Positions 7,111 through 52,725 of a DNA stretch of 58,864 nucleotides are shown here, piece by piece. Numbering within the stretch: position 1 is the stretch's first letter; each line of letters begins with the position of its first letter. A program made the position numbers and the translations under genes. The stretch is from Treponema sp. (GTDB lineage: Bacteria; Spirochaetota; Spirochaetia; Treponematales; Breznakiellaceae), in NCBI GenBank assembly GCA_003245635.1, contig QKCO01000110.1, positions 1 to 58,864 on the forward strand, written 5' to 3'. The notes under the pieces are model-generated. The model ran no database searches and was not told the DNA's origin. It worked only from the letters and a program-made list of their open reading frames with translations.

Positions 7111-8136
<1,026 letters not shown>

Positions 8137-8137
8137 C

Positions 8138-8151
8138 TAGAAATATTTCTA
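8138..8151. repeat. Perfect 14-base palindrome upstream of the nif promoter
   Basis: TAGAAATATTTCTA reads the same on both strands. It lies in an AT-rich stretch (8121-8180) just upstream of the nif sigma-54 promoter, about 17 bases from the -24 element. It could be a repressor site or an IHF-like bend region; nothing in the sequence decides between them. Confidence 0.4.
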
Positions 8152-8252
8152 AAAGTTTCTATTTTATTATACTGAAACGCTTTGAAGGATCGAAGCAGGA
8201 ACAACGCCGAAAAAAGACCCCGAACGTCCCGATCCGAACGCTCGAAGGGGAA

Positions 8253-8295
8253 CCACCGAACGGTGGGAAACCGACGCGGACCACCGTTCGGTGGG
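8253..8295. repeat. Paired inverted repeats in the nif/BKACE divergent region
   Basis: Two 14-base near-palindromes, CCACCGAACGGTGG (8253-8266) and CCACCGTTCGGTGG (8281-8294), are exact reverse complements of each other and start 28 bases apart. They lie about 150-170 bases upstream of both sigma-54 promoters, a normal distance for enhancer sites. They are good candidates for the binding sites of a sigma-54 activator, perhaps the one encoded at 11726-13207. They are not NifA-type TGT-N10-ACA sites. Confidence 0.55.
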
Positions 8296-8307
8296 AATGC
8301 GGGGCAC

Positions 8308-8353
8308 TGATGCGATGCCGTTCCGCATCACCAATCGATGCAGAACGGCATCG
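8308..8353. repeat. Nested inverted repeats in the divergent region
   Basis: CGATGCCGTT (8313-8322) is repeated inverted as AACGGCATCG (8344-8353), and TGATGCG (8308-8314) as CGCATCA (8324-8330). The two pairs overlap, so only one pairing can form at a time. They sit between the CCACCG repeats and the BKACE promoter. The rest of 8071-8492 shows no coding potential. Confidence 0.4.
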
Positions 8354-8442
8354 ATTTTGCTTTTGCCAGTCGTCTCCCACGCAACTTCGTCGCGGCGGCT
8401 GCCGTACTTCGACATTCGCCGCGTTTTTCCGCATCACAATTC

Positions 8443-8460
8443 CTGGCATGCTTACTGCTT
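8443..8460 (+). promoter_or_regulatory. Sigma-54 promoter of the BKACE operon
   Basis: The plus strand reads CCTGGCATGCTTACTGCTT. GG (8445-8446) and GC (8457-8458) are ten bases apart and TGGCATG matches the -24 box; the -12 box is CTGCT. The predicted start is near 8470, 23 bases before the ATG at 8493. The element diverges from the nif sigma-54 promoter about 330 bases away. Confidence 0.8.
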
Positions 8461-8492
8461 ATTAGTCTTCACTTTTACGCAAGGGTGGTACC

Positions 8493-9335
8493 ATGAGCGA
8501 TCTGAGCAATAAAACGATCATCACCGTTGCCCCGACCGGGGCCTGGCCGACAAAAGAGAACAATCCGAATATCCCACTCGATCCGCCGGAGATCGCGGAC
8601 GATGTCGTCGCCTGCTGGAAGGCCGGCGCCGCGGTCGCGCATCTGCACATGCGCGACGAGCAGGGCAAGGGAACCATGAACAAGGAGCGGTTCAAGGAGA
8701 CCGTCGCGCGGATCAAGGACCGCTGCGACATCGTCCTCAATCTGACGACTTCAGGCGATCTCAACGCGACCGAGGAAACCCGCATGGCGCACCTGATCGA
8801 GCTGAAGCCCGAGATGGCCTCCTACGACTGCGGTTCCATGAACTGGATGCACTCGGGGCTTTTCCTCAACCCTCCCGCCTTCCTCGAAAAGCTCGGCGGC
8901 GTCATGAAGGAAAACGGCGTCAAACCCGAGATCGAGGTCTTCGACGCCGGCATGCTCTACAACGCGCTCTATTACCTGAAGAAGGGCGTCCTCGATGCGC
9001 CGCTCCACTTCCAGTTCGTGCTCGGCGCCGCCGGCGGCACTGCCGCGACGGTCGAGAACCTCGTCTACCTCAAGAGCCTCCTTCCGCCGGGCGCCACCTG
9101 GTCCGCCCTGGGCATCGGCAAGGGACATATCCCGATCGTCCTGACCACGATCGCGCTCGGCGGCCACGTCCGGGTCGGCATGGAGGACAACGTCCTGTAT
9201 TCCAAGAACCGCCTGGCGGCCTCGAACGCGGAATTCGTCGAGCGAACGGTCCGCATGGTCGTGGAAGCGGACAAGAGCCCCGCCACCCCCGCCGAAGCGC
9301 GGCAGATCCTGTCGCTCAAAGGCAGCGCCCGATGA
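8493..9335 (+). CDS. Beta-keto acid cleavage enzyme (BKACE, formerly DUF849; Kce-like)
   Basis: BKACE enzymes are Zn-dependent TIM barrels that react a beta-keto acid with acetyl-CoA to give acetoacetate and a new CoA ester. The first characterised member is 3-keto-5-aminohexanoate cleavage enzyme of lysine fermentation. The 280-residue protein carries the metal ligands His50 and His52 (AHLHMRD) and Glu231, and the catalytic Arg227/Asp232 pair in HVRVGMEDN. The APTGAWPTKENNPN opening marks a subgroup whose substrate I cannot assign. No other lysine-fermentation genes lie nearby, so Kce itself is unlikely. It overlaps the next gene by four bases. Confidence 0.93.
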   Translation: MSDLSNKTIITVAPTGAWPTKENNPNIPLDPPEIADDVVACWKAGAAVAHLHMRDEQGKGTMNKERFKETVARIKDRCDIVLNLTTSGDLNATEETRMAHLIELKPEMASYDCGSMNWMHSGLFLNPPAFLEKLGGVMKENGVKPEIEVFDAGMLYNALYYLKKGVLDAPLHFQFVLGAAGGTAATVENLVYLKSLLPPGATWSALGIGKGHIPIVLTTIALGGHVRVGMEDNVLYSKNRLAASNAEFVERTVRMVVEADKSPATPAEARQILSLKGSAR

Positions 9336-10276
9336 TCAACAGAATCGGCGTCGTCGGCGCGGGCCTGATGGGCCACGGGATCGCGGAAGCCTTCGCGATC
9401 GGCGGCAAGGATGTCGCGATCTACGAGACCGACGTCGGCAGGCGCGCCGGCGTGAAGGACGTCATCGCCGAGGAACTGAAGCTCCTCGAACGCGAGGGAA
9501 TGATCCCGAAAGGCTCCATCCCGGAGATCGTCGCCCGCCTCCACGTCTACGACGATCTGAAGAAGGCCATGGCCGACCGGGAATACGTCATCGAAGCCGC
9601 ACCGGAGATCATCGACCTCAAGCGGAAGATCCTGGCGGACCTGGACGCCGCCTGTCCGAAGGACGCTATCCTGGCGAGCAACACCTCGAGCCTAGCCCTC
9701 TCCGAAATGGCCCGGGACCTTCCCGTCGAACGAAAGAAACGGACCATCGTCAACCATTGGTACAACCCCGCGCACATCATGCCCCTGGTGGAGATTTCCT
9801 TCTTCGGGGACACGAGCGCCGAGACCTTCGAAGCGGCGAAGGCGCTCTACCTGGGAATCGGCAAGCAGCCGGCGAAGGTGCTGAAGGACATCCCCGGCCT
9901 GCTCGCCAACCGCATACAGCAGGGAGTGGCGCGGGAAGTGTTCTCCTTGATCGAGATGGGGGCGGCCGAACCGGAAGATATCGACCGGGCGCTCAAATTC
10001 GGTCCCGCCTTCCGCTACGCGACTACTGGACAGCTCGAGATCGCCGATTTCGGCGGCCTCGATATCTGGAGCACCGTCGGAGGGAACCTCCTGGCGGTAA
10101 TGGACAATTCGCGCGACGCGAATCGGCTGCTCAAAGAAAAAGTGAAGGAGGGTAAACTGGGCGTGAAGACCGGAGAGGGATTCTTCAAGTATCCCCCGGC
10201 GGAGAAGGCCGCGATCACCGAACGGTTCATGGTGAAGCTGATCCGGCAGCTGAAAGCTTCGAAAGACTACGTTTAA
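9332..10276 (+). CDS. 3-hydroxyacyl-CoA dehydrogenase family protein (hydroxy acid dehydrogenase)
   Basis: A 314-residue NAD-dependent dehydrogenase of the 3-hydroxyacyl-CoA dehydrogenase family. The Rossmann motif GAGLMG begins at residue 9 after a short beta strand. The catalytic His142, in HWYNP, and Glu154, in PLVEI, match the family's His-Glu pair, and the SNTSS stretch lies at 116-120. Members of this family such as carnitine dehydrogenase act on free 3-hydroxy acids. Four-base overlap with the BKACE gene suggests it makes the beta-keto acid that BKACE cleaves. The substrate is unknown; plain 3-hydroxybutyryl-CoA dehydrogenase is the alternative. Confidence 0.85.
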   Translation: MINRIGVVGAGLMGHGIAEAFAIGGKDVAIYETDVGRRAGVKDVIAEELKLLEREGMIPKGSIPEIVARLHVYDDLKKAMADREYVIEAAPEIIDLKRKILADLDAACPKDAILASNTSSLALSEMARDLPVERKKRTIVNHWYNPAHIMPLVEISFFGDTSAETFEAAKALYLGIGKQPAKVLKDIPGLLANRIQQGVAREVFSLIEMGAAEPEDIDRALKFGPAFRYATTGQLEIADFGGLDIWSTVGGNLLAVMDNSRDANRLLKEKVKEGKLGVKTGEGFFKYPPAEKAAITERFMVKLIRQLKASKDYV

Positions 10277-10291
10277 TATAAGGAGGCATCA

Positions 10292-11659
10292 ATGACGACA
10301 AGCGCCGCACCCAGAAAATCCAGCGCACTTTGGCGGTTTTCGAAAAATTTCCAATTCGCAGCCGATCGGATCATTCCCGATTCCTACGTATTCTGCGTCA
10401 TCCTGACGTTCATAACCTTCATCCTCGGCCTGATCTTCACCCAGGCGGGCCCGCTGAAGATGGTCAAATTCTGGTACGACGGCCTGTGGACGCAGATCGC
10501 CTTCGCCTTCCAGATGACCCTGATGGTCACCGTCGCGAGCGCGGCCGCAAAGTCGCCGCAGATAGAGAAGGGACTCTCGAAGCTGGCGCAGCTTCCCAAG
10601 ACGCCGGGAGTCGCCTACTTCCTGTTCATCGTCATCATCAGCTTCGCCAGCTGGCTCAACTGGGCTTTCGGCACCATCCTGTCGCCCATCCTCGCCATGT
10701 ATCTGTCGAAGAACGTGAAGAAGCTGCACTTCCCGCTCCTGATCACCGTCGGCTACGCGTGCATGGTCATGATACAGCCCATCTGCCCGAGCATCTCCGC
10801 CGTCGCGCTCCTGGCGACCAAGGGGCACTTCCTCGAAAAGAAGATCGGCGTGCTGCCCATCACGACGACGGCCTTCAACCCGACCGGCGTCGCCATGGTG
10901 GCCATCCTGTTCGTCGTAACGGTCGTCGTTACGCTCCTGACCCGGCCCGCCGACAACGAGATCATCGAATTCGACGGCGACATCCAGCCGAAGGGCAACG
11001 GGGACGAAAAAGTCGCCGATCCGACCCCCGCCGACCGGATGAACCAGAGCCGCATCCTCATGTGGCTGGTGGGACTCGCGAGCGTGGTCTACATCGTGTA
11101 CCACTTCGCCACCAAGGGCATGGACCTGAACCTGAACTTCATCATCTTCATCTTCCTGACCCTGGACTTCTTCCTCTACGGCACGCCGCTGAAATTCGTG
11201 AAGGCCGTCAAGGAAAACGTCGTCCACGCCGCGGCGATCCTTATCCAGTTCCCCTTCTACGGCGGCATCATGGGCATGATGGCCAGCTCGGGCCTGACGC
11301 TGGTGCTCTCCAACGCGCTTATCCATATCGCCACAAAGGACACCTTCTACGCGCTCTCCTACATCTCCGCGTCCATCGTCAACCTCTTCGTCCCCTCTCA
11401 GGGCGGACAGTGGATGGTCCAGGGACCGGTTCTCGTCGACGCGGCCCAGGCGCTCGGCGCCCATATCCCGACCGTGGTCACCGGCTTCATGCTCGGAGAC
11501 GAGGCGACCAACCTCATCCAGCCGCTCTACATCATCCCGGCGCTCGCGCTGGTCGATATGAAGCTGAAGGACGCGTGGGGACTCATGGCGTTCATCTGGT
11601 TCATGTGGTTCGTGGTTACGGTCATCGGACTCATCGCGCTGCCGATGATCCTGCTCTAG
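10292..11659 (+). CDS. atoE: AtoE-type short-chain fatty acid transporter
   Basis: A 455-residue integral membrane protein of the AtoE short-chain fatty acid transporter family, with about eleven hydrophobic segments. The N-terminal block FADRIIPDSYVFCVILT and the SWLNWAFGTILSPILA and PSQGGQWMVQGPV segments are typical. E. coli AtoE takes up acetoacetate and butyrate. It follows the dehydrogenase gene by 15 bases with a GGAGG site and is the last gene of the operon, so it either imports the hydroxy acid substrate or moves the acetoacetate product. Confidence 0.88.
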   Translation: MTTSAAPRKSSALWRFSKNFQFAADRIIPDSYVFCVILTFITFILGLIFTQAGPLKMVKFWYDGLWTQIAFAFQMTLMVTVASAAAKSPQIEKGLSKLAQLPKTPGVAYFLFIVIISFASWLNWAFGTILSPILAMYLSKNVKKLHFPLLITVGYACMVMIQPICPSISAVALLATKGHFLEKKIGVLPITTTAFNPTGVAMVAILFVVTVVVTLLTRPADNEIIEFDGDIQPKGNGDEKVADPTPADRMNQSRILMWLVGLASVVYIVYHFATKGMDLNLNFIIFIFLTLDFFLYGTPLKFVKAVKENVVHAAAILIQFPFYGGIMGMMASSGLTLVLSNALIHIATKDTFYALSYISASIVNLFVPSQGGQWMVQGPVLVDAAQALGAHIPTVVTGFMLGDEATNLIQPLYIIPALALVDMKLKDAWGLMAFIWFMWFVVTVIGLIALPMILL

Positions 11660-11684: not shown

Positions 11685-11726
11685 GGCGTCCCCGCCGCCG
11701 ATTTTCGGCACGGGGGCGCCTTTTTT
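11685..11726 (+). terminator. Rho-independent terminator after the BKACE operon
   Basis: GGCGTCCCCGCCGCCGA (from 11685) pairs with TCGGCACGGGGGCGCC (to 11720) around a TT loop, followed by six T residues (11721-11726). The T-run touches the stop codon of the convergent activator gene. Confidence 0.85.
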
Positions 11727-13207
11727 CACCAGGAATCGATGCCGTACTTCTTGGCCTTCCTGACGACGGTCGACTGGGCGACGCCGAGCAGGCGGGCGGC
11801 CTTGTGCGAGCTGCCCGTCTCCGCGAGAGCCGCGGCGATGGCCCGCTTCTCTTCCTTCGATTTGAGCTCGCTCAGGGAACTTTCGAAGCGGGAGACGTCC
11901 GCGCATTCCTTGCCGATCACCGCGCGGACGTCGCACTCGCGGATCGTCGGCCCGGCGCCGATGACAAGGAGCCGTTCGACGACGTTGGCGAGTTCCCGCA
12001 CGTTGCCGGGCCAGGAATAGCGGCAGAGCGCGCTCAAAGCTTCGGGCTCGATGCTCTTCCCGGCGCCGTACGCCGCGTTGAAGCGGCGCACGAAATGGAG
12101 CGCCATGGCCGGAATATCCTCTACGCGGTCGCGGAGCGGGGGAATCTCGAGCGGCACGACGCTGAGCCGATAGAAGAGATCCTTGCGGAAAGCTCCCCGG
12201 GCGACTTCCGCGGCGAGGTCGCGGTTGGTAGTCGCGAGGACGCGCACGTCGCACTTCACCGGTTCGCCGCCGCCGACCCTGATGAACTCGTGCTCCTGCA
12301 GCACGCGCAGCAGCTTCGCCTGCAGCTCGAGCGGAAATTCGCCGATCTCGTCCAGGAGCAGCGTCCCGCCGTTGGCCGTCTCGAAGAACCCGGGCTTGCG
12401 CTGCCCCGCAGCGCCGGTGAAGGCTCCCTTCTCGTAGCCGAACAGCTCGCTCTCGATCAGGGAAGCCGGAATCGCGGCGCAGTTGACCTTGATGTACGGA
12501 TTTTTGCGGCGCCGGCTCCGCTGATGGATCTCCCGCGCGATCACTTCCTTGCCGACGCCGGTTTCCCCGGTGATCAGGACCGTCGAGTCGACCGCGGCCA
12601 CCTGCGCGATCGCCGTCTTTATTCCGTCCATGGACGGGCTCTCGCAGATGAAGTCGCAGGCGTCCTGTTCCATTGAACGGTAGTAGCTCAGCTCGTTCCA
12701 ATAGAGTTCCGTTTTCTCGATGCTGCTCTGCAGCTGTTCCTGCATGCGCACGAGCTCGGTGATGTCGCGCAGTACCGAGATGACCTCCTGAGCGTTCCCC
12801 TCGGCGTCGAGCACGGGGATGGCGGTCACCAGCAGGTCCCGGTTGGTGCGCTTGGATCGGCCGATACCGGTGGCGATCTTCTTGTTCGTCAGCGCTATCT
12901 CGGCGACCGAATAATTGTTGTAGAAGTACTTCTCGACGACCGCGGCCAGGGGCTTGCCTATGTACTCGTGCTCCCAAAGCCCCGTAATCTCGGAGTACGC
13001 ATGGTTGGATGCGGTGATGATCCGGTCCTTGTCGACCACATAGATGCCGTTCATGAGCGCGTCGCCCAGCACGAATATGTCGATGGCGTGCGACTCGATG
13101 GAGCTGATCTTCGTTTTCGTATCGATGATGCCGCGCGCGAATCCTTCGAGCCTGCGGGTCATCTCGGCGGAGAGAAAATCCGCATCGGCGGCTGCGGCGC
13201 TGAACAT
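11726..13207 (-). CDS. PAS-domain sigma-54-dependent transcriptional activator
   Basis: A 493-residue enhancer-binding protein. Order: N-terminal PAS domain (about 50-150), AAA+ domain with Walker A GETGVGKE (214-221), the sigma-54 contact loop GAFTGA (261-266) and Walker B LLLDEIGE (283-290), and a C-terminal helix-turn-helix (about 466-487) of the TyrR/RocR kind. There is no receiver domain, so the signal is probably a small molecule. The ATG at 13207 is chosen because GGAGAAG stands five bases before it; longer reads to 13291 have no such site. It is convergent with the sigma-54-driven BKACE operon and is its most likely activator (inference). Confidence 0.93.
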
Positions 13208-13313
13208 AGGGTCTTCTCCAGAAGTCTGCATTTCGGAACGATAATGTAGAGAACGGCTTTCAGAGTAGCGCCGCGAAACCGGCTTCGTCAAGAAAATCGT
13301 TTCAGCCCGGCGT

Positions 13314-47927: not shown

Positions 47928-48275
47928 CTAATGCGAACAGCCGTTGTCCCCGGTCTGCAGAGTCCCCGACAGGTACCGGTCCACGAGTTCCTCGGGCTCC
48001 AAGCAGGGAGCCCCGGTAACCACCTCGATGCCCCGCTGGGTGAACAGATCCTGGGCCTTGCCGCCCATGCCGCCGGCGATGATGAGCTGAACTTTGCGCT
48101 CGCCGAGCCAGCGCGGCAGCAGCCCCGGCTCGTGCGGCGGCGGCACTACTTCTTCTTTGCTGACGATGCTCCTATCAGCCTTGTTTGCCACGAGCAGAGC
48201 GAACGATGCGCAGTGCCCGAAATGAGTGGTCAGGCGGCCTTCGGCTAAAGGTACGGCGACTTTCAACGTTTCCAT
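47928..48275 (-). CDS. NifX/NifB-like cofactor-binding domain protein (third of three)
   Basis: A 115-residue protein of the dinitrogenase iron-molybdenum cofactor-binding family. The core features are VAVPLAEGRLTTHFGHCASFALL, LIIAGGMGGKAQDLFTQRGIEVVTGA, and a C-terminal tail with NGCSH. A GGAGG site stands four bases before the ATG at 48275. The ACA and HFGHC wording is of the type found beside MinD-ferredoxin ATPases, not in nif operons, so it is more likely an ORP-type partner than a nitrogenase cofactor chaperone. It overlaps the upstream MinD gene by 13 bases. Confidence 0.88.
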   Translation of the reverse strand: METLKVAVPLAEGRLTTHFGHCASFALLVANKADRSIVSKEEVVPPPHEPGLLPRWLGERKVQLIIAGGMGGKAQDLFTQRGIEVVTGAPCLEPEELVDRYLSGTLQTGDNGCSH

Positions 48276-49147
48276 GTTTCCTCCGAAATACGCTTCCAAA
48301 TTTCCCGCAGGCTCTCGGACACAGCCGAGCGCTCTTCGTATTCGATTATGCTTTTCCCGACGACCTGCGCCGCCGTCACCGACGTGTCGTAGGAGACGGA
48401 ACCGAGGACCGGAACTCCGGACGCAAGGCATAGTCCTTCGATCTCCCGCGTCAAGCCGGGGTTGATATCCGCCTTGTTCACGGCCACCAGGAGAAGCGAC
48501 TTGAAATGCTTGGCCAGGGCCATGACACGCTCCAGGTCGTGCTTTCCTGAAAGGCTCGGCTCGACGACCGCCAGCACAACATCCGCGCCGGTGACCGACG
48601 CGATGACCGGGCAGCCGATACCGGGAGCCCCGTCGACGATAATCCAGTCGGCGCCCATCTCTTCGGCGCGCGAGCGCGCTTCCCGGCGCACCAGGCTCAC
48701 GAGCTTCCCCGAATTCTCGGCTTCCGCGTCGAGCCGGGCATGCACGAGCGTGCCGAAGCGCGTATCCGACACATACCATTCTCCGCAGCGGCGCAGCGGG
48801 AAGGAGATGGCGCCGGCAGGACAGTAAGAGACGCAGACGCCGCAGCCTTCGCAGCCGGAAACGCGGTACACGTCGTCGGCGTCTCGCCGGACGGCATCGA
48901 AGCGGCACAGCGCGGCGCACTTCCCGCAGGAAACGCACTTCGCCTCGTCGATGACCGCCTCGCTACCGCTCACGAAGAATTCCCGGCTTCGGATGTCCGG
49001 GGAAAAAATCAGGTGCAGATCGGCGGCGTCGACATCGCAATCGGCGAAAACAGCTTTCGCGGATCGGGACGCGAGCGTCGCCAAAGCCGCCGTGAAGCTG
49101 GTCTTTCCCGTGCCGCCCTTTCCGCTGATGATTACCAGTTCCTTCAC
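48263..49147 (-). CDS. MinD-family ATPase with inserted 2[4Fe-4S] ferredoxin domain (second)
   Basis: A 294-residue protein starting at GTG 49147, after GGGGAGG. The MinD/ParA P-loop SGKGGTGKTS is at 8-17. Residues 62-115 are an inserted bacterial ferredoxin with cysteines 71, 74, 77, 81 and 99, 102, 105, 109, and then the ATPase fold resumes (WIIVDGAPGIGCPV). Such hybrids are the MinD-like partners of the ORP complex of Desulfovibrio, linked there to cell division. The start overlaps the stop of its paralogue as GTGA. Confidence 0.92.
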   Translation of the reverse strand: MKELVIISGKGGTGKTSFTAALATLASRSAKAVFADCDVDAADLHLIFSPDIRSREFFVSGSEAVIDEAKCVSCGKCAALCRFDAVRRDADDVYRVSGCEGCGVCVSYCPAGAISFPLRRCGEWYVSDTRFGTLVHARLDAEAENSGKLVSLVRREARSRAEEMGADWIIVDGAPGIGCPVIASVTGADVVLAVVEPSLSGKHDLERVMALAKHFKSLLLVAVNKADINPGLTREIEGLCLASGVPVLGSVSYDTSVTAAQVVGKSIIEYEERSAVSESLREIWKRISEETWKR

Positions 49148-50058
49148 CGGGAGCCTCCCCGGGAGACGCAGGCTTCGATCTTCCCGCGCAGATCTTCGAT
49201 CATGCGGCGGTACTCGACCGAAACGCCCGCTATTGTTCCGCCCCACGAAGAAGCTTCCGCCACACGGCGGTCGTTCGGGATTTGGGCCAGGACCGGAATG
49301 CGTTCTTCGGTGCAGTAGCGGAGCACGCGTTCGTCCCCGACATCGCAGCGGTTGATCGCCACGCCGAAGGGGAGGCCCATCCTGCGAATTGTTTCTACAG
49401 CGAGCGTCAGATCGTGCAGGCCGAAGGGGGTCGGCTCGGTCACCAGGAGGGCGAAGTCGGCGCCCCGGGCCGCCGTGACCATCGGACAGGAAGTGCCCGG
49501 AGGGCAGTCCAGGATGACGAGTCCCTTTTCGCCGCGCTCGACTCCAACGGCTGCGGCCCGCTTCTTGACCGCTCGGATAACCGGCGGAGACATCGATCGC
49601 CCGACCTCCATCTCGCCCTGCAGGAAACGGAGAGAGCCGCTCTCCCATTCCCGAATGGTGCCGATGCGCATGGGCTCATCGGCAATAGCCCTCTCGGGGC
49701 AAGCGAGAACGCAAGCGCCGCAGCTGTGGCACAAATCCGGGAAGATCGTCACGTCCTTCTTGATTACGATGATCGCATTGAAGCGGCACGCGCGCGCGCA
49801 CGCTCCGCATCCGACGCATTTGGATTCGTCCAATACCGGAACAGGGACCGTTACCTGCGTCTCCACTACGGAAACGCCGGCAGAAGCGCCGGAAAGGAAG
49901 AGTTCGGCGTTCGGCTCCTCCACGTCGCAGTCGAGCAGCGCGGCGGAGCCGGGGGCCGAAAGCGCGAGCGCCACCGAGAGCGTCGTCTTGCCGGTGCCGC
50001 CCTTACCGCTGGCGACAGCCAGCGCGAGCGGCCGCTCAGAGCCAGTGGCTTTCGACAT
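49144..50058 (-). CDS. MinD-family ATPase with inserted 2[4Fe-4S] ferredoxin domain (first)
   Basis: A 304-residue paralogue of the next gene. P-loop SGKGGTGKTT is at 17-26; ferredoxin cysteines are 82, 85, 88, 92 and 111, 114, 117, 121; the switch region is LVILDCPPGTSCPM. Its cytoplasmic ATPase could couple cluster redox state to dimerisation or partner binding. It overlaps the upstream NifX-like gene by 23 bases and the downstream paralogue by four, so the pair is co-translated. Confidence 0.93.
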   Translation of the reverse strand: MSKATGSERPLALAVASGKGGTGKTTLSVALALSAPGSAALLDCDVEEPNAELFLSGASAGVSVVETQVTVPVPVLDESKCVGCGACARACRFNAIIVIKKDVTIFPDLCHSCGACVLACPERAIADEPMRIGTIREWESGSLRFLQGEMEVGRSMSPPVIRAVKKRAAAVGVERGEKGLVILDCPPGTSCPMVTAARGADFALLVTEPTPFGLHDLTLAVETIRRMGLPFGVAINRCDVGDERVLRYCTEERIPVLAQIPNDRRVAEASSWGGTIAGVSVEYRRMIEDLRGKIEACVSRGGSR

Positions 50059-51378: not shown

Positions 51379-52725
51379 TCAGCGTCCGCGCAGCGCATCG
51401 AGCTCAATTCCGAATGCTTTTATTTTGCGATACAGCGTAGCCTTGTCGATTCCCAACTCAGCCGCCGCCTGGGTACAGCGCCCGCCTGATCGCTCGAGCG
51501 CAGCGAGGAGGGCAATTCTCTCCGCCGTCCGCTTATAGGCGCGAATATCCGCCGCGGCTTCGGCTACCTCCCGGAATCCCCGCGCTGACGACTGCGCGTT
51601 CAATTCGGGAGGAAGAAGCGGGAGATCGATCGCCCTTCCTCGGCAGAGAACCACCGCTCGCTCGACTACGTTCTCGAGTTCTCGTATGTTGCCCGGCCAG
51701 TAATACGCGGAAAACACGTCGTAAGCGTCCGCGGAAAAACCGTGTATTTCCTTATGATAACGGGCTGAATAGAGGCGCAGAAAATGGTCCGCCAACGCGG
51801 GAATATCTTCGGCCCGGTCCCGGAGCGCGGGCAACGGCAGTTCAATTACCTTGATTCGATAGTATAGGTCTTGGCGAAATTGTCCCTGGGCGACGAGTTC
51901 CTTGAGATCGCGATTGGTCGCGCACACGATGCGGGCGTTCGTTTTCTCCGAAGAGGTCGCGCCGAGGGCTTCGTATTCCCGTTCCTGAAGTACGCGCAGC
52001 AGCTTCACTTGAAGAGCCGCCGAGACATCTCCGATCTCGTCGAGGAAGAGCGTACCATTTTCGGCCAGCTGGAAACGGCCAGCCTTATCCTTATCAGCGC
52101 CGGTGAAGGCTCCTTTCCGATAGCCGAAGAGCTCCGACTCCAACAGCGGATCCGGAAGCGCTCCGCAGTTGACCGCGACGAAAGAGCCTTTTCCGGCAGG
52201 ACTTAAACGGTGAAGCTCACGAGCGAGCACTTCTTTTCCGGTTCCGGTCTCTCCCCGGATGAGAACAGTCGCTTCGCTGTCGGCGATGGTCGGCAGAAGA
52301 TCAAGGAGCCGGCCCATGGCGAGATTTCGACTTGAAAGGTCTGCGCCGGAGGCCATTTCGACAAGCTTTTCCTTGAGCTCTTCGATTTCGCGCAGATCGC
52401 GGAAGGTTTCCGCACCGCCTACCGTCAGGCCATTCCCGTCTACAAACAGGGCAGTCGAGACGCTGATAGGCACCCTCTCGCCTTTCGGCGTGAGGCACCA
52501 GCCTTTCCGATCGACGATGCGCCGTCCGGTACGCATGGTCCGACGGAGCGGGCACTCGCCTTCGCACATGTTGGACTTGAAAACTTCGTGGCAAAGCTTA
52601 CCGACGGCAACGGATCGGCCGATGCCGGTAATGCGTTCGGCGGCCTTGTTGAAGAAAGTGATCCGCCATTCGGCGTCTACGGTAAAAACGCCGTCGGAGA
52701 TGCTTTCGAGAATCGCCTCGGTCAT
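51379..52725 (-). CDS. PAS-domain sigma-54 activator of the ORP-type cluster
   Basis: A 448-residue enhancer-binding protein: PAS domain (1-115), AAA+ domain with GETGTGKE (158-165), GAFTGA (205-210) and LFLDEIGD (226-233), and a Fis-type helix-turn-helix at the end (TQAAAELGIDKATLYRKIKAF). The PAS domain has a cysteine group, Cys45, Cys54 and Cys58 (LCHEVFKSNMCEGEC), suggesting redox or Fe-S sensing. It lies just upstream of the paired sites and sigma-54 promoter, in the same direction, matching the regulator of the D. vulgaris orp operons (DVU2106-like). Confidence 0.93.
   Translation of the reverse strand: MTEAILESISDGVFTVDAEWRITFFNKAAERITGIGRSVAVGKLCHEVFKSNMCEGECPLRRTMRTGRRIVDRKGWCLTPKGERVPISVSTALFVDGNGLTVGGAETFRDLREIEELKEKLVEMASGADLSSRNLAMGRLLDLLPTIADSEATVLIRGETGTGKEVLARELHRLSPAGKGSFVAVNCGALPDPLLESELFGYRKGAFTGADKDKAGRFQLAENGTLFLDEIGDVSAALQVKLLRVLQEREYEALGATSSEKTNARIVCATNRDLKELVAQGQFRQDLYYRIKVIELPLPALRDRAEDIPALADHFLRLYSARYHKEIHGFSADAYDVFSAYYWPGNIRELENVVERAVVLCRGRAIDLPLLPPELNAQSSARGFREVAEAAADIRAYKRTAERIALLAALERSGGRCTQAAAELGIDKATLYRKIKAFGIELDALRGR

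Follow-up and report, generated by a model that had tools for sequence, protein, structure and literature searches.

The window analyzed here, a 58.9-kb stretch of a Treponema genome, raises the question of which compound is handled by an operon that joins a BKACE enzyme, a dehydrogenase of the 3-hydroxyacyl-CoA dehydrogenase (3HCDH) family and an AtoE-family transporter. The source assembly comprises 2.5 Mb in 182 contigs, is 82% complete and contains the window as contig 158; a search for viral contigs found none. The enzyme families, the operon structure and the predicted promoter were read directly from the sequence, with the following features.

8253-8266, dyad CCACCGAACGGTGG, candidate upstream activator site 1 (14 bp)
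8281-8294, dyad CCACCGTTCGGTGG, candidate upstream activator site 2 (14 bp, 28 bp from site 1)
8444-8459, + strand, predicted sigma-54 -24/-12 promoter TGGCATGCTTACTGCT (10 of 12 defined bases)
8493-9335, + strand, BKACE (PF05853 full-length, 353 bits over 1-274/274)
9332-10276, + strand, 3HCDH-family dehydrogenase (PF02737 and PF00725)
10292-11659, + strand, AtoE-family transporter (PF02667, SCFA_trans/AtoE, 333 bits)
11685-11726, + strand, probable terminator, an imperfect GC-rich hairpin followed by T6 (recognized by eye and not listed by the terminator scan)
11726-13291, - strand, activator with PAS, Sigma54_activat and HTH_50 domains, convergent to the operon (start codon uncertain)

The original prediction had described the three genes as coupled, under a sigma-54 promoter and with a convergent PAS activator, and both points were borne out by the domain matches, the promoter site and the spacing. 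The BKACE and dehydrogenase genes share 4 bases at the BKACE stop and the AtoE gene starts 15 bases past the dehydrogenase; the three make up a tight operon on the + strand. A divergent nif cluster lies upstream, in which nifH occupies 7246-8085; after it come two short genes, judged by eye to be PII-like and of nifI type, and then nifD, nifK and nifE.

The predicted promoter has its GG and GC elements at the correct spacing, and only three sites of this quality were present on both strands of the window (117.7 kb scanned), one of the other two being the divergent nifH promoter at 8121 on the - strand. With an rpoN gene elsewhere in the genome, a -24/-12 promoter, an AAA+ activator and RpoN are thus all represented. 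Among the relatives with a BKACE-AtoE arrangement, 11 of 11 have a sigma-54 site with 10-12 of 12 bases, 46-136 bp before the first gene, and activator homologues at 36-44% identity adjoin the BKACE gene in 10 of 11. The convergent PAS/AAA+ activator is therefore predicted to be the regulator of the operon, and we infer its ligand and targets. The dyad sequence, CCACCG(AA/TT)CGGTGG, has only two copies in the 2.5-Mb assembly, and because the dyads are absent elsewhere they look like candidate activator sites. A genome-wide search for the activator regulon through this motif gave no further copies and no new members. The dyads sit about midway between the operon promoter and the nifH promoter and, lying between two divergent sigma-54 promoters, could serve either one; a single 400-bp intergenic region (window 8086-8492) carries both promoters together with the dyads. 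A second PAS/sigma-54 activator gene is present in the window at 51379-52725, not far from a tandem pair or series of ATPase genes (48263-50058) whose products carry 4Fe-4S ferredoxin-like motifs.

The BKACE has the hallmarks of its family. In an alignment to Kce of lysine fermentation (PDB 2y7d-g), residues H50, H52, R227, E231, D232 and E148 correspond to Kce H46, H48, R226, E230, D231 and E143, i.e., to the Zn ligands (H50, H52, E231) and the catalytic Arg, Asp and Glu. An AlphaFold model made with 4 sequences gave a TIM barrel (pTM 0.85; pLDDT 78 on average but under 50 in some loops) whose best PDB match was Kce 2y7e. The two enzymes share the fold, Zn ligands and catalytic residues, but identity is about 40% and the BKACE has no lysine pathway neighbours. 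In Kce, Glu14 binds the 5-amino group. In the window BKACE this position is occupied by Trp18 (alignment to Kce 2y7d), which corresponds to Trp16 of CsTAL, and the remaining pocket is conserved. CsTAL has been assayed as the triacetate acetoacetate-lyase of the phloroglucinol pathway; its Trp16 replaces Kce Glu14, and the role of this Trp was drawn from homology modelling, not from mutants (PMC10470551). On these residues, the window BKACE is predicted to be a triacetate (3,5-dioxohexanoate) acetoacetate-lyase of the TAL type. BKACE relatives at 56-69% identity sit in complete clusters for degrading the plant phenol phloroglucinol, which encode the ring reductase PGR (phloroglucinol reductase), the ring-opening hydrolase DPGC (dihydrophloroglucinol cyclohydrolase), TfD ((S)-3-hydroxy-5-oxohexanoate dehydrogenase) and TAL; among them are those of an order-level and a family-level relative of the window organism (L022 and L024). 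Four other spirochaete BKACEs (L025, L026, L068, L076) form a separate clade with Val or Leu at the specificity position, and are encoded near thiolase genes and in some cases also near a CoA-transferase gene.

The dehydrogenase points in the same direction. The catalytic Ser117, His138 and Asn188 (HBD numbering) are kept, as in TfD, while HBD Lys56 and Asn221 are replaced by Met and Ala, so that the CoA contacts are gone. CsTfD likewise does not have HBD Lys56 and Asn221 as CoA contacts (PMC10470551). Given the missing CoA contacts, we argue that the enzyme oxidizes a free 3-hydroxy acid, and predict from its residues that it is an (S)-3-hydroxy-5-oxohexanoate dehydrogenase in the TfD role. 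On the absence of these residues, a 3-hydroxybutyryl-CoA dehydrogenase acting on the CoA ester was also rejected. A 3HCDH fold with a non-CoA substrate is seen in the second-best solved relative, 5-formyl-3-hydroxy-2-methylpyridine 4-carboxylate 5-dehydrogenase (4om8), which differs in its substrate; the window enzyme reached 191 bits, where the cut-off is 500. Identity to the TfDs of L022 and L024 was only 31-35%, compared with 53-56% to the sole local 3HCDH in the full clusters L067 and L096, and close homologues of the window dehydrogenase serve in the complete clusters of Emergencia and Konateibacter. Two TfD-like types exist, both without HBD Lys56 and Asn221 and each found both in full clusters and in loci that have AtoE instead (AtoE-type loci): the type of the window in L032, L034, L036 and L037 (AtoE-type) and in L067 and L096 (full), and the other in L049, L054, L058, L061 and L077 (AtoE-type) and in many full clusters. 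No close homologue of the dehydrogenase was found in 198 related genomes, and one has to go to other phyla for the nearest operons; both findings suggest that the operon was acquired horizontally.

Taken together, the two enzymes are quite probably a TAL and a TfD-type dehydrogenase. The logic originally proposed, from a 3-hydroxy acid to a beta-keto acid and on to cleavage with acetyl-CoA, matches the TAL plus TfD lower route (PMC10470551). The closest described system is the anaerobic phloroglucinol cluster of Clostridium scatologenes, made up of PGR-DPGC-TfD-TAL (PMC10470551). Both systems have a TAL-type BKACE in which Trp takes the place of Kce Glu14, a 3HCDH without HBD Lys56/Asn221 and the same two-step lower route. 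They differ in that the window operon comes with no PGR, no DPGC and no local CoA-transferase or thiolase; it has an AtoE-like transporter instead, whereas C. scatologenes has a major-facilitator transporter. The suggestion that the pathway may be undescribed thus stands only in part: the pairing of a BKACE with a 3HCDH-type enzyme is already described, as the lower half of anaerobic phloroglucinol degradation, and what is new is AtoE in place of PGR and DPGC, with no new chemistry. The relationship that, in the original prediction, would count against an undescribed pathway, namely close BKACE relatives whose context is known and whose neighbours match, is largely there, and the specificity residue and the synteny agree with the described pair. 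Apart from PMC10470551, literature searches on the arrangement turned up nothing.

A homologue scan of 84,980 species gave 80 loci, in which the BKACE recurs in two settings. In full clusters its neighbours are a TfD-type dehydrogenase together with PGR and DPGC (e.g., L022, L024, L043, L047, L067, L096). Eleven loci are AtoE-type (L032, L034, L036, L037, L049, L053, L054, L058, L061, L070, L077), from organisms that include Propionivibrio, Fusibacter, Geosporobacter and gut Clostridia; a dehydrogenase is present in 9/11, a PAS/sigma-54 activator in 10/11 and PGR/DPGC in 0/11. L053 and L070 pair BKACE and AtoE with no local dehydrogenase. Across 32 loci, 11 had AtoE without ring genes, 21 had PGR/DPGC without AtoE and none had both (Fisher p 0.012, with relatedness ignored). 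The operons of Geosporobacter ferrireducens (L037), Fusibacter bizertensis (L034), F. ferrireducens (L036) and Propionivibrio dicarboxylicus (L032) share with the window the PAS/sigma-54 activator, the -24/-12 site and the gene order, with identities of 70-75% for BKACE, 54-63% for the dehydrogenase and 33-53% for AtoE. Their activator gene lies upstream on the same strand, whereas that of the window is convergent, and in P. dicarboxylicus, moreover, Phe takes the place of the Trp and the AtoE is canonical-like. In the BKACE tree, made by a quick method with SH-aLRT support only, AtoE-type and full-cluster sequences were interspersed, with 6 state changes. Their pocket tables are near identical, and none of the compared positions separated 12 AtoE-type from 25 full-cluster BKACEs at the overlap threshold used. 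The most economical interpretation is that the BKACEs of both settings act on a single substrate, triacetate.

The ring-attacking half was sought separately. No match to the DPGC family PF04199 was found in the 82% complete assembly, with positive controls, and the best hit to PGR there was an SDR at 31% identity; at this completeness, absence in this organism alone is not proof. Across the 11 AtoE-type genomes, the main DPGC matches did not exceed 42% and the best PGR matches did not exceed 36%, compared with 70-85% for DPGC and 55-79% for PGR when full-cluster genomes were searched in the same way. The Geosporobacter ferrireducens chromosome is complete, and the missing close homologues there are therefore not an assembly gap. 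The genomes of Fusibacter ferrireducens and L058 hold other DPGC-like clusters (40-42%). Like the specificity and CoA-contacting residues, the absence of DPGC from the assembly and the recurrence of the operon across phyla are direct observations on sequences, from which we infer the actual substrates and the direction of transport.

Several other loci combine related parts. In Entomohabitans teleogrylli and Enterococcus crotali (L033 5936-11342; L065 3301-8831), the neighbours of a TAL-clade BKACE are a short cyclase of family PF04199, an MFS or GntP-like transporter, a thiolase and a CoA-transferase, but neither PGR nor a dehydrogenase, and the set possibly forms a direct hydrolytic route to triacetate. 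In five loci (L128 5629-11662, L090, L091, L094, L095) the Trp of the BKACE is replaced by Val and a DPGC-like cyclase (37-42%) accompanies it; PGR is absent, and a 3HCDH and a PAS/sigma-54 activator are usually present. These loci likely encode a further way of opening a ring, with a different cyclic dione as substrate. In a gut Clostridiales locus (L129 1501-10220), a cyclase, a 3HCDH, a thiolase and a TRAP transporter are found with a protein that by eye resembles 4-hydroxybutyryl-CoA dehydratase, perhaps a further dione-degradation cluster.

The AtoE family classically carries acetoacetate and short-chain acids. Nine operon AtoEs, including that of the window, form their own clade (support 100/100) apart from canonical AtoE; those of L032 and L053 are canonical-like and fall outside it. 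The genome has a second AtoE, of the canonical type, which adjoins a CoA-transferase fragment on contig 18. The operon AtoE is predicted to import the linear substrate, which we prefer over export of acetoacetate. On balance we favour, with some reserve, the reading that the operon is the lower half of anaerobic phloroglucinol catabolism without the ring-attacking half, importing a ring-opened intermediate. AtoE would import a linear C6 acid, the likeliest candidates being (S)-3-hydroxy-5-oxohexanoate and/or triacetate; the 3HCDH-family enzyme would use NAD(P)+ to oxidize the 3-hydroxy acid, in its free form, to triacetate, and the Zn-dependent BKACE would convert triacetate and acetyl-CoA to acetoacetate and acetoacetyl-CoA. 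CoA-transferase and thiolase genes occur elsewhere in the genome and could in principle be enough for these two products, ato-type CoA-transferase and thiolase carrying them to acetyl-CoA, while the PAS activator would turn the operon on via sigma-54.

Two alternatives, both unlikely in our estimate and neither ahead of the other, deserve weight. The enzymes and substrate could be the same but the intermediate made inside the cell, by genes in the missing 18% or by unrelated enzymes, with AtoE exporting acetoacetate or a short acid. The fragmented, incomplete assembly would allow this, export would suit the classical cargo of the family, and some AtoE-type genomes carry other cyclase/dehydrogenase clusters; since L053 and L070 have no dehydrogenase, triacetate import and acetoacetate export fit them equally. 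Internal production is opposed by the absence of ring genes from 11 genomes, including the complete G. ferrireducens and three other isolates, by full clusters that never contained AtoE, and by the canonical AtoE that the genome already has. The other alternative is that the BKACE acts on a different hydrophobic or uncharged beta-keto acid (e.g., 3-oxopentanoate, 3-oxohexanoate or another C5-C7 acid) and that the operon catabolizes an (S)-3-hydroxy fatty acid, which corresponds to the undescribed pathway of the original prediction. BKACEs are promiscuous, one published group being listed in a secondary table as taking hydrophobic and uncharged substrates, the operon has no ring-opening genes, and an AtoE-family carrier would suit a short-chain hydroxy acid; however, the pocket equals that of phloroglucinol-cluster TALs at the tabulated positions, both dehydrogenase types are common to phloroglucinol clusters, and the BKACEs of the two settings interchange on the tree. 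A lysine-fermentation Kce or carnitine-type BKACE operon is highly improbable, as the original prediction had judged from the neighbourhood: Kce is the closest solved fold and Lys_ferment_KCE the best NCBIfam model, but its 313.7 bits fall below the cut-off of 382, Glu14 is replaced by Trp18, and carnitine-dehydrogenase models scored far below their cut-offs.

If the operon does import the ring-opened intermediate, it may be a phylum-crossing scavenger operon, by which organisms that do not open the ring import, through the AtoE clade, 3-hydroxy-5-oxohexanoate or triacetate leaked by other degraders; we put this forward tentatively, as a proposal with somewhat less than an even chance. No description of cross-feeding of a ring-opened intermediate in anaerobic polyphenol degradation was found in the literature. 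Surveys of polyphenol degradation in gut and peat depend on PGR and ring-opening genes. If the operon handles a ring-opened intermediate, phenolic carbon would partly pass through organisms that such surveys miss, including a nif-bearing spirochaete. A testable function would also follow for the AtoE-like clade, as well as for genes that their family names, BKACE and 3-hydroxyacyl-CoA dehydrogenase, would link to other substrates.
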